Shown one piece after another: positions 23,996-53,031 of a stretch of 64,000 bases of DNA. The DNA lies in contig JABAQZ010000010.1 of the NCBI GenBank assembly GCA_019187405.1, positions 1 to 64,000 of the forward strand, read 5' to 3'. The DNA comes from Ignavibacteria bacterium (GTDB lineage: Bacteria; Bacteroidota; Ignavibacteria; Tepidaquicellales; Tepidaquicellaceae). The stretch's first letter is position 1, and every line of letters starts with the position of its first letter. The notes beneath the pieces are model-generated. The model made no database searches and had not been told where the DNA came from. It saw only the letters and a program-made list of their open reading frames with translations. The position numbers and the translations under genes were made by a program.

Positions 23996-26770
23996 ATGAA
24001 AAAGTATATTACCAAATTGATTATCATTACTTTATTAATAATGATATACACAAAAAATTATGCCTCTGCGCAAATGTTTTGGAATAACGCATGCTCATTT
24101 GCGGGGACTCAAAGCAGTTATATCAGCCGCGGAAACTCTTCAGACCTAAATATTACAGGAAGTTTTACTCTGGAAGCATGGGTAAATCCATCTACGATTA
24201 GCGGTAATAAAATTGTTCTTCAGAAAAGAGAATCAGCTAATCCGGTCGGATATACTTTATATATTTCCAACGGTAAAGTTTGTATTAGAACTAACTCAGT
24301 AACCCGACTTGTCGGAAATACAACTCTGCCGGTAAACAACTGGTCCCACATTGCAGGAAGATACAATGCTTCCACTGAATTGTTTACCATTTTTGTAAAC
24401 GGAGTATTTGATGACACAGCAACTATTACCGGCGCTGCTCCTGCCTCAAATACCGATTCTCTTTTTATCGGAAAAGGTTTTAACGATCCTTTTGAAGGAC
24501 AAATGGATGAAATCAGAATATGGAACATAGCCCTTAGCGCAGGAGATATCTCCCAACACTGGAGGTTATCACTTGGAACAAGCAGCGGAATTTATGATAA
24601 TCTTGTTATGTCGCTGACATTTCAGGACAATGACGCCAATGGAACGGCATTTACTTTAACCGATCAAACAGGTAATGGTAACAGCGGAGTAAACCGCGGT
24701 GTAACGGCTGTTGATTTATCAAACCGACCTTACCAAACAATAAACATTAACGATTGCATTGAGTTAGACGGAAATAATGATTATCTCGCTGCTCCTGATG
24801 CAACTACCTTTTCTCCATCCGATATGCTTACACTCGAAGCATGGATTTATCCAGAATCTATTGACAAAGAAAATTTAATTATTCATAAAGGAACTGATGA
24901 CGGAAGTACAGCGGATTATGCCCTTAAGCTTTATCAAGGCCGCCTTCAAGCTATTGTGAATAATATTATTGTTCTGCAATCAGATGACGATATTCCTTTA
25001 AACAGATGGTCTCATATTGCTTTTACTTATGACGGGCCTAATGGAATTCTCACATTTTACATTAATGGAAAAACCGCCGATGCTGACATTAATGATAAAG
25101 GATTTATTGTTGACGGTACCGATTCATTGTATATCGGCGGAACACTGCTACAATCGGATTTTGATGGGTATATAGATGAAGTCAGAATTACACAACGAGT
25201 AAAATCAGTAAATGAAATTAACCAATTTTTATTTAAATCTATAGATGAATCTAATGACTTGAGTGGTACAGAAGCGGTTTATAATTTCGACGGTTATACC
25301 GTCTCTAATGTCGGGACAGCCAACAGAATGTTTTTTAGGAATAATTCAGAATTTTCAAGTTCCGGATCTTTAAACGATAAACCTGTTACTCCTCTTGACA
25401 GAGCAGATAATGATTCTTTTCATGATGGATACTATATGAAGACTTCAGACAGGAGGATTCCCGATGTAGGAACAAGCGGAATGATGTTAGACGACACCCT
25501 AAATGTATTGTTGAATGAAACCATAAATGACATAAATGTTTTTGTTGCTGTAAACCATGAATTCGAGCAACAATTGTCGATATCTTTGGTCTCTCCGGGA
25601 GGAATTACTGTATCTCTTCTCAGTTCAAATAATCTTGTTCTAAACGCCGATAATATAGTAACAATATTTGACGATAATGCCGACAGTTCAATTGTAAATG
25701 GCAGGTATGTATCATTTGCGCCGAAGATAAGACCCGTTAGTGCATTAAACGCATCATACGTCGGGAGCAACTCATTTGGAAAATGGCGGCTTGTAATAAA
25801 TGATATGGTTGCAATTGATACAGGCAGACTTTATGGCTGGGGTATTCAGTTTAATAATAGTAATTCAAAGTCCACTCTTCTAAGTTCTCGTGCTTTAATA
25901 CAAGGCTTTTATGATTCATCAACCGATCTTATGACCCGCGATACTATGAGATTTTATATGAGATATACTTATTCCCCTTATGAAATTCAGGATTCTGCAA
26001 AAGCACATTTACTTCCAAACGGATCGGCTGTACTCACATTTAACAATATTGTGAATGGTATTTTTTATTATATCCATCTTAAACATAGAAATTCTATAGA
26101 AACATGGAGCTCAACAGGAATTTCGTTCGATCCACTGACTTCGCAGGCTGTCTATGATTTTACATCTTCAATCACTCAGGCATACGGTGAAAATATGATA
26201 CTTGCAGATAATTCACCCGTTTTATATGCAATTTATGGAGGTGACGTAGATCAAAATGGAAGCGTTGAAGCTTTTGACTTAAGTTCCATTGATAACGATG
26301 CAGCAAACTTTGTCACCGGATATGTAATCAATGATGTAACGGGAGATGATATTGTTGACGCTGTCGATGCTGCACTTACCGATAACAACGCATCAAATTT
26401 TGTTTCTGCATCTCTTCCTCCTGTTCTCGATGAAAACGGAAATGTCATACCTTCAAGGAATATCTTAAATAAAAAGTCTGATAATTCTGAGAAAACTGCC
26501 TTAATAAATGAATATGCTTTGGAACATAATTTCCCTAATCCATTCAACCCGGTTACCCGCATTATCTATAAATTACCGGAAGATAATTTTGTTTCAATCA
26601 AAGTATTCGATGTTAATGGCAAGGAAGTGATGACTTTGGTAAATGAAAAACAAACTAAAGGAATACATTCTGTCAATTTTGACGGGAGTAATCTTGCATC
26701 AGGGGTTTATTATTACAAAATGACTTCCGGTAACTTTAATGATGCAAAAACAATGACTTTAATAAAATAG
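23996..26770 (+). CDS. Secreted LamG x2 / P-domain protein with both dockerin-like module and T9SS tail
   Basis: A 924-residue multidomain surface protein. The order is: signal peptide (1-26, ending SAQ); LamG/concanavalin-like domain (about 30-200, FTLEAWVNP and MDEIRIWN); a second LamG (about 255-415, LTLEAWIYP and IDEVRI); a proprotein-convertase P-domain (about 480-625, SISLVSPGG, FGKWRLVINDM, GWGIQFN); the KHRN-type module (LKHRNSIETWSSTG); a dockerin-like segment (GDVDQNGSVEAFD and DVTGDDIVDAVD); and finally a T9SS type A domain (FPNPFNPVTR, ending MTLIK). It is the only protein here with both C-terminal modules complete. AAAGGAGA precedes the ATG. LamG and P-domains suggest carbohydrate or protein binding. 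No enzyme domain is seen. Confidence 0.92.
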   Translation: MKKYITKLIIITLLIMIYTKNYASAQMFWNNACSFAGTQSSYISRGNSSDLNITGSFTLEAWVNPSTISGNKIVLQKRESANPVGYTLYISNGKVCIRTNSVTRLVGNTTLPVNNWSHIAGRYNASTELFTIFVNGVFDDTATITGAAPASNTDSLFIGKGFNDPFEGQMDEIRIWNIALSAGDISQHWRLSLGTSSGIYDNLVMSLTFQDNDANGTAFTLTDQTGNGNSGVNRGVTAVDLSNRPYQTININDCIELDGNNDYLAAPDATTFSPSDMLTLEAWIYPESIDKENLIIHKGTDDGSTADYALKLYQGRLQAIVNNIIVLQSDDDIPLNRWSHIAFTYDGPNGILTFYINGKTADADINDKGFIVDGTDSLYIGGTLLQSDFDGYIDEVRITQRVKSVNEINQFLFKSIDESNDLSGTEAVYNFDGYTVSNVGTANRMFFRNNSEFSSSGSLNDKPVTPLDRADNDSFHDGYYMKTSDRRIPDVGTSGMMLDDTLNVLLNETINDINVFVAVNHEFEQQLSISLVSPGGITVSLLSSNNLVLNADNIVTIFDDNADSSIVNGRYVSFAPKIRPVSALNASYVGSNSFGKWRLVINDMVAIDTGRLYGWGIQFNNSNSKSTLLSSRALIQGFYDSSTDLMTRDTMRFYMRYTYSPYEIQDSAKAHLLPNGSAVLTFNNIVNGIFYYIHLKHRNSIETWSSTGISFDPLTSQAVYDFTSSITQAYGENMILADNSPVLYAIYGGDVDQNGSVEAFDLSSIDNDAANFVTGYVINDVTGDDIVDAVDAALTDNNASNFVSASLPPVLDENGNVIPSRNILNKKSDNSEKTALINEYALEHNFPNPFNPVTRIIYKLPEDNFVSIKVFDVNGKEVMTLVNEKQTKGIHSVNFDGSNLASGVYYYKMTSGNFNDAKTMTLIK

Positions 26771-32866: not shown

Positions 32867-35800
32867 TTAAGGAACAACTGCGCTAACAAAATTTGCCGCA
32901 TTGTTTTCTGCTAAGGAGGCATCGCTTGCGTCAATCACTTCATCACCGTTTAAGTCTGTTGCTAAATATCCGGCTGAAAAAATTGCTGCATCATTGTCAA
33001 TCGCCAAATTATCCGATGCCTCAACCACTCCGTCCTGATTTACATCGCCTGAGAGAGATGCAAATGAAACCGGGGATGTGTCAACCAGCTTTAAATTATC
33101 TCCGTATGCTTTTGTAATACTGTCCGAGAAATTATACTGCTTATCACAAACATTAAATTTTTCAGGTGAACTGTGACTCCATGACTCAATGTGATTTTTA
33201 TGATGTATGACAAAATAATATTCCGAAAAATTATTTATATTTGAAAAATAAAAATTACCGATTCCAGATGAATTAAGTACTGATGTATCCGCATCAATTA
33301 ATCCGTATGGAAAATTATAGTCGTGAATCTCTATTCTTACTGTATCTTCTATCATGATATTTGTAATTGGATCATAGTACCCTTCGAGTATTGCTTTCAT
33401 CCATAAAGAAATATTTGTTTTTGGAGCAATATCAAGCCGGAAATTTTTTGAAGAACCCGCAAAGTCATACCATACATTACCGGTATCCGATAGACCGAAA
33501 AAGAATGAATTCTCACGAACAGGAACTTCATTCTGATATGATACTCGAATATTAGTTGAAGAAGTTTGAATGAATCCGACATAAAATCTTGAATTAGGAG
33601 CTATGTTAACGGGCGGGTTAATTATAAGTGTATCTCTTTTTACAGTTCCAGAACCTGAAGGTGAAGTTAGTAAGGATGATGTATAAATTGCTGCGCCGGG
33701 TTTTCCGGATCCATTATCTGAATATATTGCAATTTTATATGGAGCATTGCCTATGCTTGAGTCAAGGAAACTGTATGCAATGGATTGAATTGGAAATATT
33801 TCAGTAGCATTAAGATTAGCAAAAGCAACAGCAAATCTCCCACTTGACCCAGAGAAACCCGTTCCGCCATCCATAGAATCACAAGGCTCGGTATATCTAT
33901 AAGCATCGCATACTAAATCAAAACAGTAAGAGTTAATATCATATCCGTTTATTGGATCTAATTCATCAGGAATCGGCTGAACAATTACCCTGTGCCTTCC
34001 CGGATGAGTTATTAAAGGCATTCTTAAAAATACCAGAGTATCTTCAGCATAGAAGTAAGGAATAGTTAATAATGTATCATAAATTATTTCGTAAGTATCC
34101 CTGTTCTTTATATAAAAATTAATTTTAGTTGAATCATTGTTTGGTTCTTGAGATTTTAAAATCTTAACTCCCAAAGTATCTAGCGAACCCCAAGTGATTG
34201 GAATCGAACCTTTAAAATATATTTCACCAGGCAAAGAAGAACCAGAAATTGAAAATAAACTATCTCTTGCAGCTGTCCATAGAGAAAATGATTGAACAAA
34301 ATCTAGTTTAATCTGATTATTCAGAGTATCAACATTGCCATGCTCTGCAGAAAAATCCGAACCACCATTTGTAGATCGGTATAAACCGAGAAAAGACTCT
34401 GATAGAGAATCCAGCTCAGACTCATCGTATGTAAAAAGTATTTTAGCATTCAAAGAATTATTATTTTCAGGTGATATCGCATAATTTCTTCGAATACTTG
34501 ACCTGCCAGAGAAAACATTATGGACATTATGAGATCTTATTACAGTTGTAAGACCTAGATAATCATACGATGTTAGGATAACTCCCAAGCCGCCAATATT
34601 TAACGAATCAGGTCGATTAATATACCTTGAAGTTTTAATTGAACCGGAATTTCCAGTAATAGAATTACCGTAAGATTCATGTAATCTGGCAGTATCTAAT
34701 AATGTTATTGTTTTGCCATTCAAATTCAAATCACCACTAAGAATTGACAACAAACCAGTTATCGAGAAATTTGAATCCAACGAAACACCGGCAGGATTGT
34801 TTACTATCAGATTAGAGTATAGAACATTTTTGGTAATCAATGTTTGCGGTGAAGATCCGTTATATTCAATTGTGCAGTTTGAATTAATCGGAGTTCCGTT
34901 ATTTACAAGTGCCGTTCCGGGAGCAGACAATTTAAGAGTGTAGGTTGAAGCATTGAATTTCCCACCGCTGTTTATTAACAATGAAGTGAACTGATAATCA
35001 CTGCCCAGAGTTAATACACTTCCGGATATAAGATTCACAGCCGGTCCGGAAATACTTCCCGACCCCATTATGAGAGACGTATCACTAAATCTTAATAAAG
35101 CATTACCTGAGATTATACCGTTATTAGTTAAATCATTTTTTATAGTTATAAAAGAACTGTTAAATACGGTATTTAAGACAGCACCAGAATCTACAATCAA
35201 TTTTTTATGAAAAACAAACTCGGAATTCTCAATTATATTTGTTATGCCTGAATTAATTCTGCAATTAACAGTAAAACCTGTATCGTTGTGAATAGATAAA
35301 CTTGCATTTCCTTTGACCAGCAATATTCCTTTACCTTTTATTAAACCACCATTATTCAGTGTCAAACCAGATCCGCCAACACCATTCACAATAAGAGTTT
35401 TTAATGTATCAATAGATATCTGTCCGCCGTTTTGAATTATTAATTCGTCAACATTAACATTGAAAGTTATATTAATTATATGGGAATTTTGTATTGAAAT
35501 AGAAGAACTGGAATTATCAGGAGAGCAATCAGCAGAAATCCATGTACCGCCGCTGTTGGTTGACATTTGCCAGCTCAAAGGATTATTCCAATTACCTGAA
35601 GTTCGAGATCTGAAAGATTTATTTGCAGGAGAATTAATAGCAGACGCTAAAATAATATAAGCTCTCCCCGTTCTTGAATTGTAACCCGGAGCACCGATAA
35701 CAGCATCCGTAAATCCGTCACCATTTATGTCCCCTGCCGAAGAAACTGAAACTCCAAGAAGACTATCATAAGACATTCCGGAAAACGTTATATCAACACT

Positions 35801-38293
35801 ATTATTCATCGGTGAACCGCCGAAGTATATAGATGCTTTACCATTGTTTGAATTAAAATGTTCTATTCCTACAATGACATCTGAATAACCATCACCATTC
35901 ATATCACCAGCAGATGAAACAACTCCTAAAAAAGGATCAATCGGACCTTCATCAATAATGACATCAGCAGTATTATTCATTGCTGCTCCTCCATAATAAA
36001 TATATGCCCTGGCATTTTCAGAACTTAGTGGAAACCCACCAACAATGATATCCGAATAACCGTCAGCATTTATATCGCCTGCTGACGAAACAGAAGCACC
36101 AAAATCATCCGCAATTACTTTTCCGGACATTATGACATCTGCTGATGTATCCATTGATGATCCGCCAAAAAAAACAAATACCTTTCCAGTATCGGCCGGA
36201 TCAAAATCATGTGGTGCACCTATGACAACATCAGAAAAACCATCATTATTAACATCACCTGCAGAAGAAACAGAAGATCCAAAAATACAATAACTATCTT
36301 CTCCTGTCATTCGAATATCAGCAACATCATTCATCGTAGCACCACCGAAATAAATATAAGCTTTGCCGGTACTTGAATTATATCTGTAAGCTCCTACAAT
36401 TACATCAGAATAGTTATCATTATTTACATCACCAGCCGAAGATACCGAAACACCAAAATGACCGCCCTCTCCTTCTAAAGTAACATCAGCAATATTATCC
36501 ATAGACATTCCGCCAAAATAAATATAAGCTCTGCCAATACCTGAACCAAAATGATGAGAAGCACCAACAATAGCATCGGAATATCCGTCATTATTTACAT
36601 CACCAGCGGATGAAACTGAAGTTCCAAAAAAGTTATCTGTTAAAGCTGCATCCAAAGTAATATCTGGAACATTATTTAGCAACAAACCGCCTAAATAAAT
36701 AAATGCCCTGCCTTTGTTTGAATTATATTGAGGAGAGCCCACAATGAAATCAGAGTATCCATCGCCATTTAGATCTCCGGCAGAGGAAACACTGCTACCA
36801 AAGGAATTATTAATTGACTCTCCGGTCAAGATTAAATCACTAATTATTTCTCCGCTCAAAGAATAATCAAACATATAAACACGACCAGTGTTAAAATTAT
36901 AACTAAATGCGCTGACAAGAAAATCAGGATTGTCATCACCAGTTACATCATTACCACCCGTAACCTTAGAAGCAAATCTTTCACCTGGGGTTTCACTGGA
37001 AATAATGATATCGGCTGTGGCATTCATTGCTAAACCACCGAAATAAACATAGACTTTCCCTGTGTCCTGTGCGTATGCCCCAATAATTATATCAGAATAA
37101 CCGTCTTTGTTTATATCTCCAGCTGTTGAGAGATAAGTTCCAAATAAATAATTTGAATTTTCACCAGTCATTATAACATCAGCAGTGGCATTCATTGCAG
37201 CACCACCAAAATAAACATAAACTCTGCCGTAATCACTATTATACCTGTCTGCTCCCACAACAACATCCGAAAATCCGTCTCCGTTAACGTCACCGGCATA
37301 TGAGACTACAACTCCATAATTACCAGCTATCTCACTGAGTACTAAATCATAAGCATTATTCATACTAACGCCGCCATGATATATATAAGCTTTTTGCACT
37401 CCATGAGCTCCTATTATGACATCGTCAAATCCGTCCATATTAACATCGCCAGCAGATGAAACAGCAATACCAAAATGGTGATTACCTCCTTCTCCATCCA
37501 TAGTTACGTCAGGAACATTATTCATTGAAGCTCCTCCTAAATAAATATATACCTTACCAGTATTTGAATTATTTCCGTCTGCGCCAATTATTAGATCGTC
37601 ATATCCGTCATTGTTAACATCACCGGCAGAAGCTATATGTCCAAAGAAATCAGAAGCAGCTTCACCAGTCATAACAACATCTGCAACAGTATCCATAACA
37701 ACACCACCCAAGAATACATAAACTCTGCCCGTGTTAGAATTAAAATGATTAGCTCCAACAATAACATCACAAAAACTGTCTCCGTTCACATTTGCCAATA
37801 CAACATTGTTACCAAATTCACTGCTGTCAGCTTCACCAGTTAAAATTACATCAGCATCATTATCAATAAATGGTCCCCCATAATATATATATACATTACC
37901 TACATTATAATAAGTAGCTCCAATAACAATATCATTGAATCCGTCACTGTTTATATCACCGGACATAGAAATAGCAGTGCCAAAATATTCATTTGGACCA
38001 AATCCTTCAAAAATACTCCGTTGAATAAAATCAGACCCGTTTTCATGATTACTTATCCGACTACCGTTTTCATCCAAAATATTATTAATCCGGATATTGA
38101 TTGCATCTTCCATTAGAGTATCTATTTTTTGATATCCACCAATATACGGCTTACGACTCATATTACCTTCGGGAATTGTCCACCGGGGAACAACTCCAGA
38201 ACTATGCTTATCCCAATTTGCATTTAAATCAAGAAGAAAAGAAAGCGAAAGAATAAAACAAATAATGAAGAAAGAGAAAGAGATTGATTTCAT
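32867..38293 (-). CDS. Giant FG-GAP protein: two seven-bladed propellers, beta-rich stalk, dockerin-like end
   Basis: An 1808-residue exported protein. A signal peptide (1-24) is followed by 14 FG-GAP repeats of about 57 residues, each with an SSAGDVNNDGYSDVIVGA-type calcium loop. The seventh repeat is atypical (DVTGDDNPDF) and is followed by DYSLSGEIISDLIL, marking the end of a first seven-bladed propeller. Repeats 8-14 make a second. A stalk beginning FRSRTSGNWNNPLSW with beta-solenoid-like strands follows, then an Ig-like region, the KHRN-type module (IHHKNHIESWS) and a dockerin-like segment (GDVNQDGVVEASD and DLNGDEVIDASD). It ends at AVVP with no T9SS domain. FG-GAP propellers bind ligands in integrins and in bacterial adhesins; the ligand here is unknown. 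Confidence 0.92.
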   Translation of the reverse strand: MKSISFSFFIICFILSLSFLLDLNANWDKHSSGVVPRWTIPEGNMSRKPYIGGYQKIDTLMEDAINIRINNILDENGSRISNHENGSDFIQRSIFEGFGPNEYFGTAISMSGDINSDGFNDIVIGATYYNVGNVYIYYGGPFIDNDADVILTGEADSSEFGNNVVLANVNGDSFCDVIVGANHFNSNTGRVYVFLGGVVMDTVADVVMTGEAASDFFGHIASAGDVNNDGYDDLIIGADGNNSNTGKVYIYLGGASMNNVPDVTMDGEGGNHHFGIAVSSAGDVNMDGFDDVIIGAHGVQKAYIYHGGVSMNNAYDLVLSEIAGNYGVVVSYAGDVNGDGFSDVVVGADRYNSDYGRVYVYFGGAAMNATADVIMTGENSNYLFGTYLSTAGDINKDGYSDIIIGAYAQDTGKVYVYFGGLAMNATADIIISSETPGERFASKVTGGNDVTGDDNPDFLVSAFSYNFNTGRVYMFDYSLSGEIISDLILTGESINNSFGSSVSSAGDLNGDGYSDFIVGSPQYNSNKGRAFIYLGGLLLNNVPDITLDAALTDNFFGTSVSSAGDVNNDGYSDAIVGASHHFGSGIGRAYIYFGGMSMDNIADVTLEGEGGHFGVSVSSAGDVNNDNYSDVIVGAYRYNSSTGKAYIYFGGATMNDVADIRMTGEDSYCIFGSSVSSAGDVNNDGFSDVVIGAPHDFDPADTGKVFVFFGGSSMDTSADVIMSGKVIADDFGASVSSAGDINADGYSDIIVGGFPLSSENARAYIYYGGAAMNNTADVIIDEGPIDPFLGVVSSAGDMNGDGYSDVIVGIEHFNSNNGKASIYFGGSPMNNSVDITFSGMSYDSLLGVSVSSAGDINGDGFTDAVIGAPGYNSRTGRAYIILASAINSPANKSFRSRTSGNWNNPLSWQMSTNSGGTWISADCSPDNSSSSISIQNSHIINITFNVNVDELIIQNGGQISIDTLKTLIVNGVGGSGLTLNNGGLIKGKGILLVKGNASLSIHNDTGFTVNCRINSGITNIIENSEFVFHKKLIVDSGAVLNTVFNSSFITIKNDLTNNGIISGNALLRFSDTSLIMGSGSISGPAVNLISGSVLTLGSDYQFTSLLINSGGKFNASTYTLKLSAPGTALVNNGTPINSNCTIEYNGSSPQTLITKNVLYSNLIVNNPAGVSLDSNFSITGLLSILSGDLNLNGKTITLLDTARLHESYGNSITGNSGSIKTSRYINRPDSLNIGGLGVILTSYDYLGLTTVIRSHNVHNVFSGRSSIRRNYAISPENNNSLNAKILFTYDESELDSLSESFLGLYRSTNGGSDFSAEHGNVDTLNNQIKLDFVQSFSLWTAARDSLFSISGSSLPGEIYFKGSIPITWGSLDTLGVKILKSQEPNNDSTKINFYIKNRDTYEIIYDTLLTIPYFYAEDTLVFLRMPLITHPGRHRVIVQPIPDELDPINGYDINSYCFDLVCDAYRYTEPCDSMDGGTGFSGSSGRFAVAFANLNATEIFPIQSIAYSFLDSSIGNAPYKIAIYSDNGSGKPGAAIYTSSLLTSPSGSGTVKRDTLIINPPVNIAPNSRFYVGFIQTSSTNIRVSYQNEVPVRENSFFFGLSDTGNVWYDFAGSSKNFRLDIAPKTNISLWMKAILEGYYDPITNIMIEDTVRIEIHDYNFPYGLIDADTSVLNSSGIGNFYFSNINNFSEYYFVIHHKNHIESWSHSSPEKFNVCDKQYNFSDSITKAYGDNLKLVDTSPVSFASLSGDVNQDGVVEASDNLAIDNDAAIFSAGYLATDLNGDEVIDASDASLAENNAANFVSAVVP
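35620..38000 (-). repeat. 14 tandem FG-GAP coding repeats
   Basis: About 170-bp coding units, 14 in number, forming two blocks of seven. The block boundary is near 36830-36890, where the DYSLSGEIISD linker is encoded. Limits are approximate. Confidence 0.8.
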
Positions 38294-38574: not shown

Positions 38575-39006
38575 TCACCTTATCTTTTCAATCCAAGCTA
38601 AAGAATTTTCCTTAAGAGATTCTGGAATTTCTTCACCCGATAATAAAGGCGGATTAAAATTCTTTCTTACCAAATAACCCCTTATTTTTGAAGCCTGAGG
38701 ATCGATCCCACCGGTCGTTATGTCACAAATAAAATTACTGTTGCAGTCAGGCGCTGTCAATGGGTTATCAAATGTAGGCTTATTCCACCAACCAGAAACA
38801 TAAATATAAATAGCAACACTGAATTCTTCCGGGACGACTCCCTGCACCCTTCCTTTTAAATCATCATTAGAACCAATAGAAGGAACGCTTGTAAACTCAA
38901 GACCGGGCGAAGCAGACAATAAATATGGATCACATTTATCACAATCAAGAGAAAGTGAAAATAATAAACTAAAAAGGATCAATGATAGTTTAATAGCATT
39001 CTTCAT
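38575..39006 (-). CDS. Small secreted protein made of a GWW-type domain
   Basis: A 143-residue exported protein. A signal peptide (about 1-19, LFSLLFSLSLDC) may be lipoprotein-like, because Cys22 and Cys25 follow it. The remainder is a single domain: LEFTSVP, then LKGRVQGVVPEEF, then VSGWWNKPTFDNPLT, then CNSNFICDITTGGID. The same domain is the N-terminal part of the GH16-like protein at 51569-52942 (EFTSVP, LLGRVFNVIP, GSGWWVKPTANSPLT), so this gene is a stand-alone copy. It has no T9SS tail. A carbohydrate-binding role is plausible by association only. Confidence 0.75.
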   Translation of the reverse strand: MKNAIKLSLILFSLLFSLSLDCDKCDPYLLSASPGLEFTSVPSIGSNDDLKGRVQGVVPEEFSVAIYIYVSGWWNKPTFDNPLTAPDCNSNFICDITTGGIDPQASKIRGYLVRKNFNPPLLSGEEIPESLKENSLAWIEKIR

Positions 39007-40225: not shown

Positions 40226-41098
40226 TTATTTTATTAATAACATCTTTCTTACTTGTGTAAAATTTCCAGATTTAGCTTGATTCGCTCCGCTTACCACAAG
40301 TCTGTAAAAATAAACACCGCTGGCAAAAGAGCTTCCATCAAAATTAACAGAGTAGTTTCCAGCGCTCTGCTGATCATTTACCAATGTTGCGATTTCCCTA
40401 CCCGCAACATCGTAAATATTTAATGATACATGACCATTAACAGGTAATACATAATTAATACTTGTTGACGGATTAAATGGATTCGGATAATTCTGGCTTA
40501 ATGAAAATTCATTTGGAAGCGAAGCTGTGCTTTCTTCTCCCGAAATCTTATCGGCTGAAAATTCATCTTTATTTGTTATATCAACTATTTGATTCTCAAT
40601 GAAAGCAAAGATCTTAGTGAATGGATTCTCCGGACCTGATCTTAATTTCAGATTGAGTCCAGCATCGGAAAATGATTTAGAGGAAGTTGCAAGCCTCATT
40701 TTTGCAATCAGTGTTCCGGGTGATTTACTTGATATCAAAGGAAGATTTTCTTTCGGAGGAACTGAATTAACGGCTAATCTCAATTGATTTCCCGAAACGG
40801 TCGGGTTTCTCGGCTGTAAAGATTGAGGCAAATCTGAACCTATTATTGAATATGTCAGTGTTCCACCGTTTGCAATCTCTGAATTAAAGTCAAAGAAAAA
40901 CTGGCCGAGAACATATTCGAATTTAGTTTCACCGGAATTTACATGCTGAAGATAGATATCGAATTCATAAACATTAGAAGAAACGAGTTTAACGTTTTCT
41001 GCAGTTAACTTGTATTTCGGATTGCCGGCTAAACTTATGTTCTGCCCAACTACAGATAGTAGAATTACGAGTGATGATATTAGAATTGAGTTTTTCAT
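40226..41098 (-). CDS. Secreted cohesin-like domain protein with T9SS sorting domain
   Basis: A 290-residue surface protein. A signal peptide (1-24, ending SLAG) precedes a domain of about 140 residues with an alternating beta-strand pattern: VYEFDIYLQHV, FEYVLGQFFFDFN, LTYSIIGSDLP, NQLRLAVN, SPGTLIAKMRLATSS. This order and the FxFxFN strand resemble the cohesin/CBM-like jelly-roll fold, but the assignment is by pattern, not by a database match. After a short linker comes a T9SS type A domain (YPNPFNPSTS, YDVAGREIATLV, SSFASGVYFYRL, ending MLLIK). It lies 85 bp downstream of a gene with a dockerin-like end, so a pairing is possible. Own terminator at 40188. Confidence 0.8.
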   Translation of the reverse strand: MKNSILISSLVILLSVVGQNISLAGNPKYKLTAENVKLVSSNVYEFDIYLQHVNSGETKFEYVLGQFFFDFNSEIANGGTLTYSIIGSDLPQSLQPRNPTVSGNQLRLAVNSVPPKENLPLISSKSPGTLIAKMRLATSSKSFSDAGLNLKLRSGPENPFTKIFAFIENQIVDITNKDEFSADKISGEESTASLPNEFSLSQNYPNPFNPSTSINYVLPVNGHVSLNIYDVAGREIATLVNDQQSAGNYSVNFDGSSFASGVYFYRLVVSGANQAKSGNFTQVRKMLLIK

Positions 41099-41145
41099 TT
41101 TTGGTTATTAGTTAAAATTATATTAAAATTATTTTTAAATATAGA

Positions 41146-41169
41146 GTGGCAGAATTATCTCTCTGCCAC
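41146..41169 (-). terminator. Terminator-like hairpin
   Basis: GTGGCAGA and TCTGCCAC form an 8-bp stem with an 8-nt loop, 14 bp after the stop at 41184 and before the cohesin-like gene. It may only attenuate read-through. Confidence 0.5.
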
Positions 41170-41183
41170 ACTAATGAAGCAAT

Positions 41184-42815
41184 TCACGGGCGCGAAGCTG
41201 TAATAAAGTTGGTAGCATTATTATCGGCAATAGATAAATCCGAACCGTCAACATAGGAATCTCCGGTCAAATCGTTATTTAGATAACCAGTAGCTCCAAT
41301 GGATGCATCATTATCTATCAATCCCACATCAGAGGCATCAACAATTCCATCCTGATTTACGTCGCCGCTGTAAATGCAGTACTTAGTACCTTTTAATATT
41401 TGATTATTGCCGTATGCCTGACTTGCCGAAGTAGTGAAATCATAATTATTAACTGAACCATCACCTTTGACAAGATAAACACCACCGTTCTTGCTCCAGG
41501 TTACTATGGTGTTACGATGATTAACTACAATATAGTAATTTCCAGTGTGAGGTTTATGAAAATAGAACTGCCCGGAAAGAGTAAACGGACTGATTACACC
41601 CTTAGCAGTATCTTTAATAGTATAAGGAGATGCAGCATTTCTCAAAAAGACTGTAACGGTATCTTGTATTGCCATTTCATTAGCTCCAGAATCGAACATT
41701 CCTTCAAAAAGAAGTTTCAGATTTAAGTTTATGTAAGCTGGATTGAAATCATAAATTGAAACATCGTCAAAGGATGCACCATCAGCACTACTTCCGCAAC
41801 CATTATGAGAGCTTATACGATATCTTATCTTAACTTTATCGGATTTATAATTGCTTAAGTCAAATTGCTCAGAAGTCCATGTATTATTTGATCCATGCCA
41901 AGGTGGTTGATTTAGAGGTGGTTGAGGGGGCAAAGCAACCCAAGTGAAGCCACCATTAGTTGATACATCAAGATAAATATAATCATAATATTGTGTATAA
42001 TTACAAATAGGAGATGCTAAACTATAACGATGATAAAATGTCAACACTGGAAAGTTAGTCTTTGATAAATTTAACACCCCTGACATTACGATTATTGGAT
42101 CTGAATTCCATGCATAATTTCCACTTTTGCTATCAGTCAAACAAAACATACCTGAATTAGGATTTACTTTAGAAGTGTCCCAATTGAAACCACCCAAAAA
42201 CCAATTATACTTACCATTTTCAAAATTATCAGAAAATGGAAAAACAAATGTTGGATTCGTAGAGATAAATTCCTGGACTTTAACATCATCAATATACCAG
42301 CCATCAGCAACGGAGCTACAACCATTATGTGAGCTTAGGCGAAACCTGAACTTAACCAAATTATACTTATAATTGCTTAAGGTGAATTGTTCATGAGTCC
42401 ATGCTCTATTACCACCAGTCCAAACTTTGATTTGACTCCAACTGAATCCGCCATTAGATGATATTTCAAGATAAATATAATCATAATACTGTGTATAATT
42501 ACATATAGGATAAGCTAAATCATAGCGATGATAGAATGATAAAACAGGAGAAGTAGTACCGGATAAATTTATCGATTGAGCCAATGTAACTGTTGGATCC
42601 GAATTATAAGTATAATTGCCCGTTCGACTGTCAGTAAGACAATGATTAGATGAAGAGTAAGTTGAACTTAAAGTATCCCAGTTGCCACCACCAATAATCC
42701 ATTTGGCTTTACCATTTTCGAAATCATCACTAAAGTAAGTTTGAGCTCTTAGTGAAGATACACTCAGCAACAGAAGAACTATGCCAAAAGCATAGATTGA
42801 ATTTTTGATTTTCAT
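41184..42815 (-). CDS. Secreted two-jelly-roll protein with dockerin-like C-terminus
   Basis: A 543-residue exported protein. A signal peptide (1-25, ending LRAQ) is followed by two similar domains (about 26-190 and 190-365) with the pattern DDFENGKAKWIIGGGNWDT, SDPTV, FYHRY, YDYIYLE(I/V)S-NGGFSW and DGWYIDDV. These resemble the MAM/immune-inhibitor-A VEG-type jelly rolls. Then come the KHRN-type module (VNHRNTIVTWSKNG) and a dockerin-like segment (GDVNQDGIVDASD and DLTGDSYVDGSD), ending ITASRP. Its two ectodomains are also found in the T9SS-tailed protein at 57317-58666, which shows exchange of C-terminal modules. AAGGAG lies just before the ATG. Confidence 0.9.
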   Translation of the reverse strand: MKIKNSIYAFGIVLLLLSVSSLRAQTYFSDDFENGKAKWIIGGGNWDTLSSTYSSSNHCLTDSRTGNYTYNSDPTVTLAQSINLSGTTSPVLSFYHRYDLAYPICNYTQYYDYIYLEISSNGGFSWSQIKVWTGGNRAWTHEQFTLSNYKYNLVKFRFRLSSHNGCSSVADGWYIDDVKVQEFISTNPTFVFPFSDNFENGKYNWFLGGFNWDTSKVNPNSGMFCLTDSKSGNYAWNSDPIIVMSGVLNLSKTNFPVLTFYHRYSLASPICNYTQYYDYIYLDVSTNGGFTWVALPPQPPLNQPPWHGSNNTWTSEQFDLSNYKSDKVKIRYRISSHNGCGSSADGASFDDVSIYDFNPAYINLNLKLLFEGMFDSGANEMAIQDTVTVFLRNAASPYTIKDTAKGVISPFTLSGQFYFHKPHTGNYYIVVNHRNTIVTWSKNGGVYLVKGDGSVNNYDFTTSASQAYGNNQILKGTKYCIYSGDVNQDGIVDASDVGLIDNDASIGATGYLNNDLTGDSYVDGSDLSIADNNATNFITASRP

Positions 42816-43886: not shown

Positions 43887-46800
43887 TTAAGGAGAAATTG
43901 TCGAAATAAATGCAGCAGCATTATTATCTGCTATAATTGCATCTGCACCGTCAATAATTTCATCTCCGTTTAAATCCGAATCTAAATAACCTGTCTTAAA
44001 CATTGCAGCATCATTGTCTATTAATAATAAATCCGAGCCGTCAACTGCATCATCCTGATTTACATCCCCCGAATAAATTGCGAATTTGTCTCCAACAGCG
44101 GTCATATTATTCCCGAATGCTTTTGTTATGTTATCCGTAAAATTAAAAATTTTCTTACAGACATCAAATTTTTCGGGGTAATTATTACTCCAGGTTTCTA
44201 AATGATTTCTATGCTGTATTACAAATCTATAACTTGAATCCTGTCGGACATTTGTAAAATATAAATTCCCTATTCCGTTAGAATCTAAATAACATGTATC
44301 TTCATCTATCAAATCATAAGGTGGATAAAAACTTTTGACTTGAAGTCTAATAGTATCCCCAATCATGTATCCTAAAGATGAATTGAAAAATCCCTGAAGT
44401 AAAGCATTCAAGGTCATACTTGTAACTGTTTTCGGAGAAATATCGAGACGATAATTTTTTGAAGAATCGGCAAAATCATACCATTCATCATTCGAATCAG
44501 AATTACTAAAGAAGAATGAATTTATTCTGACTGGTATTTCATTTTGATAAGAAGCTTTAATGTTTGTTCCCGAAGTCTGAATATAGCCAACATAAAATCT
44601 CTTACCAGGAGGTATTTTGACTGGAGGCACTATATCATGCGTAAGTGAAACTTTCCCTCCCGGTGAATATAATAGTGGAGATATATACAGCGCTTCTCCC
44701 GGTTTACCGCTTCCATTGTCAAGGTAAACTGCAAGTTTATACTGAGAGCTTACATAACTCGAATCATTGAAGCTGTAGTCCAATGCATAAATTGGATAAT
44801 CTTCCGTAGGGCTTAGATTTGTAAAACCTACAGCCATTCTGCCAAGGCTGCCGTCAAAACCAGTTCCGCCATCCATTGTATCACAAGGCTCTGTATAAGA
44901 AAATTCATTGCATGTAACATCAAAACAGTAAGTTTGCAAGTCATACCCGTTAATTGGATCAAGCTCATCAATAATTGCCTGAACAATTACTGAATGAGGC
45001 GCTGGATTTACTATATTAGGCATCCTCAAATAAACAAGCGTATCAGACTGTTGGAATTCGGGAATTGTAATTAATGTATCAAAAATAATTTCGAAAGTTT
45101 CCATGTTTTTTATCATATAATTTACCTTAACTGAGTCATCCACCATTAAGATATTTTTGTTAATTCTAGCAGAAATATTATCCATAGATCCCCACCTTAT
45201 ACACACTTTTCCTTTTGCATAAATATTTCCGACAGAAATCGAATCCTCAAGATCAACCCCGCTTAATCTTCTTGCTGCCGTTAATCTTGAAAAAGAATGA
45301 ATATGATTTAAAAATATCATATTGTTTGATGTATCAACAACCCCTCCTTCATAGACATAACTGGTACCCCCATCTGTGGAAGAGTAAAGACCCAGTGAAG
45401 ACTCCTGAAGCGTATCAATCTCAGAATTATCATATCTGAAAATAAGATTAGCGTTTAATGCCGAATTATTACTTGGAGAAATATCAAAAAATCTGCTAAC
45501 ACTTGCTTTTCCAGTATCAACAAACTGCACACCGTGTTTACGAGAGATAGTTGTCATCCCAAAATTAGCATAAGAAGTTATTATAATTCCCAACCCTCCA
45601 ATATCTGATAAATACGGACTATTAATAAATCGAGTCGTAGAAATGGAACCTGAATCTCCCATCAAAGTATTGCCTGGCGATTCTTGTAATCGGGCAGAAT
45701 CCAAAAGAGTTATGTCATAACCATTTAGATTCAGATCACCATTACTGATTGATAGTAATCCTGAAATGGAAAAATCAGTATTCATAATAACGCCTGCAGC
45801 ATTATTAATTTTAAGATTAGCATAGTTTATATTTACAGCTGAAATAATCTGAGGAGAAGTACCGTTATACTCTATTGAGCCATTTAAAATAAGAAAAGAA
45901 CCGGCATTAGAAAGAGATGAACCTGAACCAGATAGTTTGAGTGTATATGATAAAATATTAAATATAGCGCCGCTATTAATCTGTAATCTGCCGAATTGAT
46001 GATTGCTTCCCAATGTTGCATTTCCATTCACGGAAATTATATTAGTACTGTCAAAACTTCCTAATCCTGAAATAGAAGTAGTATTATTAAGATTAACTTC
46101 ACGGACAGAAACCAGCCCATTGTTTAAAAATGAAATACCGTTGATAAAGATTGAACCTTTTCCTGAAATCACACCTCCGGTATTCAAAGTCAGACCTATT
46201 CCTCCTATACCTTTTATATTGAGGGATTTCAAAGAATCAATAGCAATACTTGATCCGGATTCAAGAATTAAGTTATAAGCACTGTCGCTTTCTGTTATGG
46301 AAATTATGTGGGAATTTTGAATTGTAATTTCATCGCTTGTATTATCGGGAGAACTTGGAGCTGAAATCCAATTGCTACCACCATTGGTTGACATTTCCCA
46401 TGTTAAAGGTGAATTCCAGTTGCCGGAAGTTCTTGTTCTGAATTCTTTATTGGAAGGTGAGCCGATAGCGGAAGCGAGGTACAAATAAGATTTTCCAGTG
46501 AACGAATTATATCCTTGAGCCCCGACAATTACATCAGGAAATCCATCGCTGTTCACATCACCTGCAGATGAGACTGCCAAACCAAAGTCATCACCGGGTG
46601 CTTCTCCAACCAGCGTAATGTCAGCAACATTATTCATCTGGGCTCCTCCAAAGAATATGTTTGCCATCCCTCTGTCCGATTCAAAATGCTCGCTCCCGAC
46701 AATTAAATCAGAATACCCGTCATTGTTCATATCTCCAAGTGAAGCAACAATACCTCCAAAAACATCAGTTGGTGATGCTCCGGTCATAAGCACATCTGCA

Positions 46801-49800
46801 GTTGTATCCATTAATGTCCCGCCGAAATAAATGAATGCTTTCCCTTTGCCTCCGTTAAATTCCGATGCACCGACTGCAACATCAGAAAAACCATCTCCAT
46901 TAACATCACCCGCTGTCGAAACAGAAAATCCGAAGTTGTCAGCTAATTGTTCTCCAACCATTTTCACATCTGCAACGTTATCCATTGATGCTCCTCCAAA
47001 AAATATATGTGCTTTTCCTTTACTTGGTTCTGAAAAGTCATGAGCAGAACCGACAATGACATCCGAGAAACCATCTCCGTTCACATCGCCGGCAGTTGAA
47101 ACTGACATTCCAAAAAGATCATTTGATGCTTCACCGTTCATTACAACATCTGCAGTATTATTCATCGATGCTCCGCCATAAAAAATGTACGCTCTTCCGG
47201 TACTTGACCCATACCTGTAAGCCCCTACAATAACATCTGAATATAGGTCTCCATTCACATTCCCGGCAGAAGAAACCCAAACTCCAAAGTGTCCTCCTTC
47301 ACCAGTCATTACTACATCAGGAGAATTATCCATATTCGCTCCGCCAAGAAATATGTATGCTCTGCCAACATTTGTACTGTACCAACCTGCTCCAACAATT
47401 ACGTCTGAATATCCGTCATTATTTACATCTCCTGCAGATGAAACTGAACAGCCAAAATTGTTATTTATTCCCTCTCCGGTCATTGTTACATCAGCAACAT
47501 TATCCAGCAATGCTCCTCCGTAATAAATGTATGCTCTTCCGTAATCTGTAGTTGTAGTATACTCCGGCGAACCAACAATGAAATCATCATATCCATCATT
47601 ATTTACATCACCAGCAGATGAAACTGCAGCACCAAATGAGACCAGTGTCTCCTCACCATTCAAAACTAAATCGGAAATAATCTCACCATTCGCTCTGTAA
47701 TCATAAACATAAACTTTCCCGGTGTATGAATTATAAAACAGCGTTCCAATAATGAATTCGAGATGACCGTCTCCGTTAATATCACCTCCAGCTGAAACTG
47801 CTACAAGGTTCTCACCCGGAGTCTCCTCATACTTAATTATATCCGGAATAATATCCATCGAAGCACCGCCAAAATAAACATACGCTTTACCGCTAAACGG
47901 TTCAGCCATTATAATATCAGAGAATCCGTCTTTGTTCAGATCACCTGCACTAGCAAGCGTATTTGCATTACCTAGAAACGCACCTGATTCTGAGCCAATA
48001 AATGTATAGTCTGCTGAATTGTTCATAGAACTTCCTCCATAAAACAAATATACTTTTCCCTTATTTGAATCAAAACGGTAAGCTCCTACGAGTACATCTG
48101 AAAATCCATCACCGTTCACATCTCCGGCAGATGAGACACTTTCTCCGAAATAACCAACTTCTCCAACCAAAGGAATATCAGCAGTAGCATCCATCGATGG
48201 CTCTCCATAAAAAATATATGCTTTTCCAACATTGCTCAAATAACCCCTTGCACCGACAATTACATCAGAATAGCCGTCTTTGTTCACATCGCCTGCTGAT
48301 GAAACGGCAGTACCAAAGTAATTATTTGCTGATTCGCCATCCATAATGACATCCGGAATGGTATCCATGGGTGACCCACCATAATAAATATACGCTCTAC
48401 CCTTATTTGAACTGAATTGACTTGCTCCGACAATTACATCAGGATAACCATCTTTATTAACATCACCTGCTGAGGAAACTGACATTCCAAACATACTATT
48501 TGGCTCACCGGTCATAATTCTATCCGGGACATTATCCATAGATGGTCCTCCAAATAAAATATAAACTCTGCCTGAGTCTGAATTGTACCTTCCAGCTCCG
48601 AAAATTGCATCGGAGTATCCGTCTTTATTCACATCGGCTGATGAAACGCTGATTCCAAGTTCGCTATCCGGTTCTCCAAGCATAACTATATCAGGAATAG
48701 TATCCCAAATAGCTCCGCCAAAAAAGATATAAGCTTTGCCTGTATCATGACCGTCCCCGGAACCGATAACTACGTCATTATAACCGTCACCATTCATATC
48801 ACCGGAACTAACGCAGCTTCCGAAATATTCAAATGTATTGGGTCCGGTTAGTACTCTGCTTGATGAATTTGAAGTAATATTTCCACTCACGCTATAATCA
48901 TATAAATACACTCTTCCTCTGTTTGAATTACATCTAAAGGCACCGACAAGAAAATCAGTATTACCATCACCGGTTACATCACTTCCGCCTGCAACTTCCG
49001 AGGCAAAAGTAGCATCATTGATAATTATATCGGCAGTGTTATTCATTGTTGAATTTCCAAAATACACATATACTTTTCCTATACCTCCTATATAGGCCAC
49101 AACAACTACGTCAGAATAACCATCTTTGTTTATATCTCCAGCAGATGAGATTGCACATCCAAAAAAATCATTTGAACTTTCACCTGTCATTGTAACATCG
49201 GCAGAACCATCCATTAACGAACCTCCATAAAAAACATATGTTCTTCCCATATTACCATTGTACCTGTCAGCCGATACGATTACATCTGAAAATCCGTCAC
49301 CGTTGAAGTCGCCGGCATTGGAAACAAATATTCCAAAAAGACCCGGTTCACCTGATTGCAAAGTAACATCTGCGGATGCATCCACTGATGCTCCACCAAA
49401 AAATATATATGCTTTTCCGGCATAATGAGCTCCGACTATCACGTCATCAAATCCATCCTTGTTAACATCGCCTGCTGATGATACCGAGATTCCAAAATGG
49501 TCATTATTTCCTTGACCATTCACAATTACATCCGGGACATTGTTCATTGGGGCTCCGCCAAAGTAAATATAAGCCTTGCCTTTGTTTGAACTATTGCCAT
49601 CTGCTCCAATGATTATATCATCGTATCCGTCATTATTCATATCTGCGGCTCTACATATACCAAAAAGATCACCAGTGTTTTCTCCTGTCATTGTAACATC
49701 CGCAATTGTATCCAAAGGAGCTCCGCCGTAGAAGACATAGACTCTTCCTGTGTTGGAATTATAATGACTTGCTCCAACAATGAGATCGCCATAGCTGTCT

Positions 49801-50312
49801 CCATTCACGTTTGCCAATGAAAGATGGTACCCAAACTCACTGCTGTCGGTTTCTCCGTTTAATATTACATCAGGCTCGGAATCCACATTAGGGCCTCCAA
49901 AATATAAATATACGCGACCCGGATTATTGTATGTAGCTCCAATAGCTATGTCATTGAACCCATCCCCATTTACATCAGCTGACATACTAACCTCACACCC
50001 AAAATATTCATTTGAACTGAATCCATCAAAAATTCTTCTTTGTATAAAATCAGGCTCATACTCTCCCTGCATTATCTTTGCCCCGTTTTCATCACGAAGA
50101 CTCTCAAGCCAGGCCTGTGTAACTCCTTTCGGAAGTGAATCCTTTCTTTGACTTGCTGATTGGAAATTGCTCATTTGTCCGGCAGACATTAGCTGCGGAC
50201 TTTGAGGTAAGTGGGGATAATTCTTTTCAATCCAGTTTGCATTTGAATTGATTGCAGTTAAAAGGGATGTGGAAAAAATTAAAAGGAAAATGTGGTAAAT
50301 GACTGCTTTCAT
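43887..50312 (-). CDS. Giant FG-GAP protein: three seven-bladed propellers, beta-rich stalk, dockerin-like end
   Basis: A 2141-residue exported protein and paralogue of the 1808-residue one. After a signal peptide (about 1-25, ending NANW) come 21 FG-GAP repeats of about 56 residues. Repeats 7 and 14 are atypical (DVTGDGNTDF; DINGDGHLEF) and are followed by DYSVSGN and DYRANGEIISDLVL, so the array divides into three blocks of seven. After repeat 21 the same stalk begins (FRTRTSGNWNSPLTW). The stalk is shorter than in the paralogue and is followed by an Ig-like region, the KHRN-type module (IQHRNHLETWS) and a dockerin-like segment (GDVNQDDAVDGSD and DLNGDEIIDGAD). The first loop has D instead of G at the usual Gly position. 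There is no T9SS tail. Probably a large surface adhesin or scaffold. Confidence 0.92.
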   Translation of the reverse strand: MKAVIYHIFLLIFSTSLLTAINSNANWIEKNYPHLPQSPQLMSAGQMSNFQSASQRKDSLPKGVTQAWLESLRDENGAKIMQGEYEPDFIQRRIFDGFSSNEYFGCEVSMSADVNGDGFNDIAIGATYNNPGRVYLYFGGPNVDSEPDVILNGETDSSEFGYHLSLANVNGDSYGDLIVGASHYNSNTGRVYVFYGGAPLDTIADVTMTGENTGDLFGICRAADMNNDGYDDIIIGADGNSSNKGKAYIYFGGAPMNNVPDVIVNGQGNNDHFGISVSSAGDVNKDGFDDVIVGAHYAGKAYIFFGGASVDASADVTLQSGEPGLFGIFVSNAGDFNGDGFSDVIVSADRYNGNMGRTYVFYGGSLMDGSADVTMTGESSNDFFGCAISSAGDINKDGYSDVVVVAYIGGIGKVYVYFGNSTMNNTADIIINDATFASEVAGGSDVTGDGNTDFLVGAFRCNSNRGRVYLYDYSVSGNITSNSSSRVLTGPNTFEYFGSCVSSGDMNGDGYNDVVIGSGDGHDTGKAYIFFGGAIWDTIPDIVMLGEPDSELGISVSSADVNKDGYSDAIFGAGRYNSDSGRVYILFGGPSMDNVPDRIMTGEPNSMFGMSVSSAGDVNKDGYPDVIVGASQFSSNKGRAYIYYGGSPMDTIPDVIMDGESANNYFGTAVSSAGDVNKDGYSDVIVGARGYLSNVGKAYIFYGEPSMDATADIPLVGEVGYFGESVSSAGDVNGDGFSDVLVGAYRFDSNKGKVYLFYGGSSMNNSADYTFIGSESGAFLGNANTLASAGDLNKDGFSDIIMAEPFSGKAYVYFGGASMDIIPDIIKYEETPGENLVAVSAGGDINGDGHLEFIIGTLFYNSYTGKVYVYDYRANGEIISDLVLNGEETLVSFGAAVSSAGDVNNDGYDDFIVGSPEYTTTTDYGRAYIYYGGALLDNVADVTMTGEGINNNFGCSVSSAGDVNNDGYSDVIVGAGWYSTNVGRAYIFLGGANMDNSPDVVMTGEGGHFGVWVSSAGNVNGDLYSDVIVGAYRYGSSTGRAYIFYGGASMNNTADVVMNGEASNDLFGMSVSTAGDVNGDGFSDVIVGSAHDFSEPSKGKAHIFFGGASMDNVADVKMVGEQLADNFGFSVSTAGDVNGDGFSDVAVGASEFNGGKGKAFIYFGGTLMDTTADVLMTGASPTDVFGGIVASLGDMNNDGYSDLIVGSEHFESDRGMANIFFGGAQMNNVADITLVGEAPGDDFGLAVSSAGDVNSDGFPDVIVGAQGYNSFTGKSYLYLASAIGSPSNKEFRTRTSGNWNSPLTWEMSTNGGSNWISAPSSPDNTSDEITIQNSHIISITESDSAYNLILESGSSIAIDSLKSLNIKGIGGIGLTLNTGGVISGKGSIFINGISFLNNGLVSVREVNLNNTTSISGLGSFDSTNIISVNGNATLGSNHQFGRLQINSGAIFNILSYTLKLSGSGSSLSNAGSFLILNGSIEYNGTSPQIISAVNINYANLKINNAAGVIMNTDFSISGLLSISNGDLNLNGYDITLLDSARLQESPGNTLMGDSGSISTTRFINSPYLSDIGGLGIIITSYANFGMTTISRKHGVQFVDTGKASVSRFFDISPSNNSALNANLIFRYDNSEIDTLQESSLGLYSSTDGGTSYVYEGGVVDTSNNMIFLNHIHSFSRLTAARRLSGVDLEDSISVGNIYAKGKVCIRWGSMDNISARINKNILMVDDSVKVNYMIKNMETFEIIFDTLITIPEFQQSDTLVYLRMPNIVNPAPHSVIVQAIIDELDPINGYDLQTYCFDVTCNEFSYTEPCDTMDGGTGFDGSLGRMAVGFTNLSPTEDYPIYALDYSFNDSSYVSSQYKLAVYLDNGSGKPGEALYISPLLYSPGGKVSLTHDIVPPVKIPPGKRFYVGYIQTSGTNIKASYQNEIPVRINSFFFSNSDSNDEWYDFADSSKNYRLDISPKTVTSMTLNALLQGFFNSSLGYMIGDTIRLQVKSFYPPYDLIDEDTCYLDSNGIGNLYFTNVRQDSSYRFVIQHRNHLETWSNNYPEKFDVCKKIFNFTDNITKAFGNNMTAVGDKFAIYSGDVNQDDAVDGSDLLLIDNDAAMFKTGYLDSDLNGDEIIDGADAIIADNNAAAFISTISP
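46450..50010 (-). repeat. 21 tandem FG-GAP coding repeats
   Basis: Units of about 170 bp in three blocks of seven. Block ends are near 48850-48920 and 47660-47725, where the DY-S/A-G linkers are encoded. Limits are approximate. Confidence 0.8.
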
Positions 50313-51568: not shown

Positions 51569-52942
51569 TTATTTTAAAAAAAACATATTTTTAGTTTCAT
51601 TAAAATCTTCAGCTTTTAACTGATAATAATACACCCCGCTCGGAAATCCGCTCGCATCCCAATCCGCCTGATAACTTCCGGCATCCAATTCCTGATTCAC
51701 CAACATCGCAACTTCCTTTCCCAATGAATTATAAATCATGAGCTTCACAATAGAATACTTAGGGATGTCGAATTTGATGTTGGTTTTTGGATTAAACGGA
51801 TTCGGATAATTTTGGTAAAGAGAATATCCATTCGGTCGAACTGTTGAAATAGTATTTATTCCAATAGAATTGGAAGCAAAGCTAAAATCATAAACAATAA
51901 CTTCAGCTTCCTGAGAATTTGAGGGAGCATTGCCTTGAAATAGCCAGAGATTTATCCTGACATTCTCTCGATTGTGGTTGGGAACACTGCTTCCGGAAAA
52001 TGTCCACGACTGATAAACCGTATCATAAGGAGGACTGCTATTAAACCCGCTTACGCTGCTGAAATTAACTGAATTATGTTTCCATTCAAAAATATGAGAT
52101 GAATTTATCACAGAAACGGGAAAAATCCAAGAATGTAAATGACCGGGTGAATTAAATGGCTGGACCACATATTGAGAGTTTATAGATTGATTCATACTCC
52201 ATTTAGAAAACTCTATGTCAATTTCCCTGTGGCTCTCAACTGGCGACATGTCCCACGTAAATAAACCCAGAACTATATTGCGATCCATATTTCCGACAGG
52301 ACTTGAAATTTTAAAAACGTATTTTCCGTAATTCAGAGTATCATTACAGATAATTTCCGGACAGTACCAAATGTCATTTCTTTTAGATATTTTCAAATGA
52401 AGGCGATTATTTTCTACCCAGACGTTACGGGTATCATCTGAGAAAAAGTTAGGACCCGGACCAGCAGAGAGAATTGTATTTTTAACCCACCAGTTTCTTG
52501 AAGCAAAATTTATTGTTCGTCTGTATCTCAAACTATAAATATGTACATAATTGGTAAACATGTAGTCAGGAATTTCCGGACTTCCAAGAAGTATTGGCGG
52601 ACTTACACCGTTTGGAAGAAGGAAAGCAGCAAAACAGGTTGCATATTTATCATTTGATCCAGAATTTACATTACAGGAGAAAGTGGAATTGCTTTGAATT
52701 ACTGTCAAAGGAGAATTAGCTGTCGGCTTAACCCACCATCCGCTGCCTTCAAGTAATAAATAGACCACAATTTTATAATCCGCGGGAATCACATTGAAAA
52801 CTCTTCCCAATAACGGAGAAGTAGTTTCATAAGCAGGAACAGAAGTAAACTCAATTGAAGCTACTTCCGGATTTTTAGAAAAGGCTGAATTGAAATTTGT
52901 AAAAGATAGAAAAAACAAGAAACAAAACGTAGGAGAAAGCAT
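51569..52942 (-). CDS. Secreted GH16-like protein with N-terminal GWW domain and T9SS tail
   Basis: About 457 residues. The ATG at 52942 is preferred to an upstream GTG because it directly begins the signal peptide (MLSPTFCFLFFLSF) and GGAG lies 6 nt before it. An N-terminal domain (EFTSVP, LLGRVFNVIP, GSGWWVKPTANSPLT) is shared with the small protein at 38575-39006. A concanavalin-like domain of about 220 residues follows. It has the GH16 active-site pattern REIDIEF (E-x-D-x-E) and strands such as NNRLHLKISKRND and GKYVFKISSP, so a beta-glucanase-type or related activity on a surface polysaccharide is likely but not specific. The tail is T9SS type A (YPNPFNPKTN, ending MFFLK). Confidence 0.85.
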   Translation of the reverse strand: MLSPTFCFLFFLSFTNFNSAFSKNPEVASIEFTSVPAYETTSPLLGRVFNVIPADYKIVVYLLLEGSGWWVKPTANSPLTVIQSNSTFSCNVNSGSNDKYATCFAAFLLPNGVSPPILLGSPEIPDYMFTNYVHIYSLRYRRTINFASRNWWVKNTILSAGPGPNFFSDDTRNVWVENNRLHLKISKRNDIWYCPEIICNDTLNYGKYVFKISSPVGNMDRNIVLGLFTWDMSPVESHREIDIEFSKWSMNQSINSQYVVQPFNSPGHLHSWIFPVSVINSSHIFEWKHNSVNFSSVSGFNSSPPYDTVYQSWTFSGSSVPNHNRENVRINLWLFQGNAPSNSQEAEVIVYDFSFASNSIGINTISTVRPNGYSLYQNYPNPFNPKTNIKFDIPKYSIVKLMIYNSLGKEVAMLVNQELDAGSYQADWDASGFPSGVYYYQLKAEDFNETKNMFFLK

Positions 52943-53031
52943 TGAACTCCATATAAAAATACTTAATTTTATCACGACTATTTCCCTCCGAGAAAAATTC
53001 TCTATTATGAAAATTGATTAGTTAATTGATG

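Follow-up and report, generated by a model that had tools for sequence, protein, structure and literature searches.

The 64,000-nucleotide stretch of an Ignavibacteria bacterium genome analyzed here (the window) raises the question of whether a short protein that appears to be anchored to the cell surface serves as a receptor for proteins that carry a dockerin-like end. A first-pass annotation had described the protein at 40226-41098 as a cohesin-like domain joined to a type IX secretion system (T9SS) sorting tail, next to an upstream gene whose product ends in a dockerin-like module without such a tail, and had suggested that the two form a surface assembly pair. In this study, we find that the described architecture of both proteins is correct. 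The 290-aa protein, encoded on the minus strand, consists of a signal peptide (residues 1-25, 41024-41098, assigned heuristically from the sequence), a cohesin-like (COH) domain (residues 27-176, 40571-41020) and a type A T9SS sorting domain (residues 202-290, 40229-40495), which scores 37.3 bits against TIGR04183 (cut-off 23) and 33.2 bits against Pfam PF18962 (cut-off 27). A search for the T9SS translocon protein SprA found it in this genome with 903.7 bits, and the 290-aa protein thus combines a TIGR04183 tail with a T9SS in the genome, as type A cargo does. The neighboring 543-aa open reading frame (41184-42815, minus strand) is transcribed ahead of it across a gap of 85 bp. Its product contains a signal peptide, two MAM/reelin-like modules (residues 25-358, 41742-42743; PF20773 54.5 bits, PF21471 43.9 bits), an X-like module of about 90-105 aa (41412-41732), found in the same placement in the proteins examined, and a C-terminal dockerin-like module (residues 469-538, 41187-41411), with no T9SS tail. 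The pair is flanked by two giant FG-GAP proteins (32867-38293 and 43887-50312) that are 53% identical and both dockerin-like-ended. Between the first of these and the pair lies a 143-aa protein (38575-39006) that matches, at 33% identity, the N-terminal region of a T9SS-tailed protein of 468 aa (51569-52975), of which it is perhaps a shortened copy.

The window holds seven dockerin-like modules, as had been counted from its open reading frames. Besides that of the 543-aa protein, they lie at 3707-3916 (minus strand; gene 3584-6943, a BNR/sortilin-like protein), 14057-14269 (minus; gene 14039-16531, YCF48/BNR-like), 26186-26407 (plus; gene 23996-26770, LamG and P-domain), 32882-33103 and 43902-44114 (both minus; the two FG-GAP genes), and 63175-63384 (minus; a gene that crosses the window end, 63157-63852 in the window). 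The product of gene 23996-26770 has a T9SS tail after its dockerin-like module and is the single such case in the window. All Pfam Dockerin type I (PF00404) scores in the window stay below the cut-off of 22.9 bits, the best being 22.0 and that of the 543-aa protein 17.0. A profile built from 23 of the dockerin-like modules matches solved dockerins in the PDB, with a best E-value of 1.6e-4 (2vn6_B), and the modules have a pair of 12-residue calcium loops with a helix after each, as dockerins do. In a co-fold model of the orthologous pair L112, the dockerin-like part adopts a predicted loop-helix-loop-helix arrangement with helices at 38-49 and 68-77, each following a loop. Among 58 modules of the two-loop pattern, taken from this genome and its relatives, D/N at loop position 5 and D at position 9 are mostly kept, D1 and D12 having been demanded by the search pattern itself. 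Asn18 is kept in 98% of first and 95% of second repeats; at position 19, 89% of first repeats have Asp/Asn and 95% of second repeats have Asn. The helix residues at positions 18 and 19 are where dockerins contact cohesins, and type I dockerins have symmetric recognition helices; the modules described here carry like residues in both repeats, a two-fold symmetry that resembles theirs. By a loose motif, 52 of 64 proteins have the X-like module (about 90 aa) ahead of the dockerin-like module, and in the other 12 a similar stretch is visible by eye.

This 3.78-Mb genome (98% complete) encodes 16 COH domains and about 98 dockerin-like modules, nearly all of the latter on proteins that have the X-like and dockerin-like end instead of a T9SS tail. 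From the genome-wide match lists we computed that 11 of the 16 COH genes lie within 300 bp of a dockerin-like gene on the same strand, versus 9 of the 126 remaining genes with a T9SS tail (Fisher p 7e-8), so that the adjacency noticed in the window exceeds chance across the genome. Counted by clusters, 7 of 10 COH clusters have a dockerin-like neighbor (binomial P 3e-7 for an assumed total of about 3200 genes); no dockerin-like gene is near four of the 16 copies, two of them on contig C11, one on C5 and one on C7. The usual order, dockerin gene and then COH gene, recurs in other genomes of the family, and L112, a close relative of the window pair, has the same order, with a COH domain 70% identical and a dockerin protein of 533 aa. 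Moreover, two genomes of another family (G069 and G136) each have, by profile, one COH domain and one dockerin-like module, encoded by adjacent genes.

The copy numbers across the order point the same way. Nine of its 44 genomes carry COH domains, with 6-16 copies each, and these nine have 44, 62, 79, 79, 91, 99, 109, 110 and at least 123 dockerin-like modules; the other 35 have zero COH and 0-10 dockerin-like modules. Every genome with 44 or more dockerin-like modules therefore has 6-16 COH domains, and among the 44 genomes none rich in dockerin-like ends is without the cohesin-like protein, an outcome that could have gone against the earlier proposal and instead agrees with it. The nine genomes may be one clade, and the link in copy number therefore does not amount to nine independent events.

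A further connection is provided by proteins that bear both modules. In this genome a COH domain and a dockerin-like module occur in one protein at C30:3037-4422 and C30:4437-5708, and elsewhere in L092, L094 and L095. Two COH domains per protein are found only in L118 and L120, with the layout COH-COH-dockerin-like, and in L126, with COH, COH and dockerin-like module; by analogy, such two-module layouts are those of adaptor scaffoldins. The cluster on contig C30 (L059:3040-12905), which resembles a small scaffoldin operon, encodes two COH-dockerin-like proteins, two COH proteins with T9SS tails (about 800 aa, one with a Pfam PKD domain) and one dockerin-like protein.

It has to be considered that the X-like and dockerin-like end is not a docking module but a second kind of sorting signal, recognized by the T9SS or by some other machine of the outer membrane, and that the cohesin-like protein, though also at the surface, has no relation to it. 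The placement of the end is in keeping with this explanation: it lies close to the extreme C-terminus, with a median of 5 residues beyond the module, and it replaces the T9SS tail, the two occurring together in only one of 65 distinct dockerin-like proteins. The protein encoded at 57317-58666 is 57% identical to the 543-aa protein over residues 1-357, and it ends in a T9SS tail where the other has the dockerin-like end. Because such similar bodies end differently, the two ends look interchangeable, a sequence-based impression that speaks for docking on a receptor and that a sorting signal would also fit. However, a sorting signal leaves the gene adjacency, the joint expansion of the two families and the two-module proteins unexplained, and in the rest of the order such ends number 0-10 per genome and COH domains are absent. 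We consider this explanation unlikely, though it is the most serious of the alternatives.

Sequence alone cannot place the COH domain, since searches of Pfam, NCBIfam and PDB sequences with its 150 aa gave no convincing match. Pfam Cohesin (PF00963) has no match in the 290-aa protein and none over the cut-off in the genome, and against canonical cohesins hhalign gave a collinear alignment with weak support (probability 9.6%, P 0.003; P 0.35 for a T9SS-tail control). The AlphaFold2 model, made from an alignment of 63 relatives, is of high confidence (mean pLDDT 94.8, pTM 0.89) and predicts a nine-strand jelly-roll sandwich closest to solved cohesins. Its top Foldseek match in the PDB is 5lxv_A, the cohesin of Ruminococcus flavefaciens scaffoldin C (E 3.2e-4, probability 1.00, TM 0.57/0.53), followed by many type I and II cohesins, with CBM3 modules close behind. 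On the Foldseek cohesin match and the weak sequence and profile comparisons, the COH domain is cohesin-like in its predicted fold and outside the known cohesin family in sequence, and the cohesin-like character proposed for it from its strand pattern is supported, with CBM3, of the same superfamily, ranking second. The 16 copies in this genome are best read as an undescribed, divergent cohesin family, predicted by structure and missed by current domain models. Canonical Pfam cohesins score over the cut-off in 84 of 149 genomes of the wider class, and they are absent from this genome and from the COH-rich relatives searched in the family (G070, G097, G103 and G132).

The proximity of CBM3 modules suggests another explanation, that the COH domain works as a CBM3-superfamily carbohydrate-binding module and holds a polysaccharide, its neighbors being simply other surface genes. 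The fold is common to CBM3 modules, which come right after the cohesins in the Foldseek ranking, and for the ortholog COH model Foldseek lists a CBM3c-bearing enzyme first and a cohesin second. For the window domain, in contrast, the best E-value and the highest TM-scores go to cohesins: Foldseek TM-scores to cohesins are moderate, at 0.40-0.58 (highest pair 0.58/0.56); CBM3b/c modules alone reach 0.39-0.44, and CelQ reaches 0.49-0.52 when normalized by the query. Nor would a carbohydrate-binding function account for the link to dockerin-like genes, which the other T9SS-tailed genes, at 9 of 126, do not share, and we regard it as quite improbable. Least probable of all, by a small step, is that the dockerin-like modules are partnerless structural calcium-binding ends, the parallel growth of the two families reflecting nothing more than an abundance of surface proteins in these genomes. 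In its favor, each family occurs many times in this genome and the nine COH genomes may share one ancestry. Against it are the single-copy pairs lying side by side in G069 and G136, the near-invariant Asn18 and Asn/Asp19 on the helices and the existence of COH-COH-dockerin-like proteins.

We consider it probable that these genes encode a non-cellulosomal, T9SS-anchored cohesin-dockerin display system built on a divergent cohesin family, with the cohesin-dockerin binding inferred; the earlier suggestion of a surface assembly pair is in this sense supported by the predicted fold and the genome counts. The 290-aa protein would be one of a family of surface receptors, which the T9SS would export and fix to the outer membrane surface. 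The COH domain of each receptor would then bind cargo proteins, which include enzymes, adhesins and the product of the neighboring gene, by their calcium-loaded dockerin-like ends. Proteins that bear both modules would serve as adaptors linking one receptor to the next. It is possible that dockerin-tailed cargo crosses the outer membrane through the T9SS while bound to its receptor. The broader proposition that a few T9SS-exported cohesin-like receptors carry or capture about 100 dockerin-tailed proteins, with tail-less cargo reaching the surface receptor-bound and adaptors chaining the receptors, is more speculative, and we put it forward tentatively as less probable than the display system itself. 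The co-fold model was made with the L112 pair because the window pair is out of frame. In the model of L112, read through in frame with stops read as Ser and with about three misplaced residues in many rows of the alignment, the COH domain is well folded and the dockerin-like domain is partly confident. The pTM is 0.59, at which the model does not fix the orientation of the domains and agrees both with docking and with its absence.

The likeness to the cellulosomes of Clostridium and Ruminococcus, with their type I and II cohesin-dockerin and X-dockerin modules, is considerable: a cohesin-like fold, a two-loop C-terminal dockerin-like module, an X-like module ahead of it that recalls the X-dockerin pairs, anchored receptors and adaptor-like proteins bearing both modules. 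The differences are that the receptor here lies outside Pfam Cohesin, that its anchor is a T9SS tail and its host a Gram-negative organism, that the scanned cargo has no glycoside hydrolase, and that in this genome there is a single COH domain per protein and therefore no classic multi-cohesin scaffoldin. Pfam matches in 22 of the about 98 dockerin-like proteins included FG-GAP repeats, MAM, LamG, BNR/sortilin repeats, endonuclease I, endonuclease/exonuclease/phosphatase, lipase-like hydrolase and sugar dehydrogenase, and no glycoside hydrolase was found in these 22. An ordinary cellulosome was set aside, with no cellulase in the 22 scanned cargo proteins and no multi-COH scaffoldin in the genome. 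On this cargo, the proposed system is, as far as seen, one for general display rather than a cellulosome.

The nearest precedent that we found is a proposed cellulosome-like system in Ca. Stygibacter of the Cloacimonadota, in which cohesin, dockerin and a T9SS-type C-terminal domain occur together, the last on the scaffoldin, and the cargo includes peptidases (PMC8542988). In Ca. Stygibacter, domain annotation located the cohesins in a single CBM-containing scaffoldin of 3,755 aa (PMC8542988), whereas here there are many short receptors of an unrecognized cohesin family. Non-cellulosomal cohesins such as the cohesin-like modules of Clostridium perfringens (2jh2 and 2vo8), which are among the Foldseek matches, show that the same fold occurs outside the cellulosome; they belong to another sequence family and are part of secreted enzymes, in contrast to the T9SS-anchored receptors described here. 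Compared with T9SS type A sorting domain proteins (TIGR04183), the receptor has the tail above the cut-off, and its putative cargo ends in a dockerin-like module instead. In the related Melioribacter roseus, dockerin/scaffoldin domains were found in no cellulase gene (PMC3534657). In the literature searched, which took in few subscription papers, no such system was found for this lineage.

The COH domain is a candidate partner for many dockerin-like ends in this order. If our reading is right, plug-and-socket assembly would operate at a large scale, with about 100 cargo proteins per genome, in T9SS bacteria for which there is so far no sign of a role in cellulose use, and a receptor family would have been missed by current domain models. 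It would also raise the question of how tail-less proteins get across the outer membrane of these bacteria, and it would offer a new and possibly orthogonal binding pair for protein engineering.
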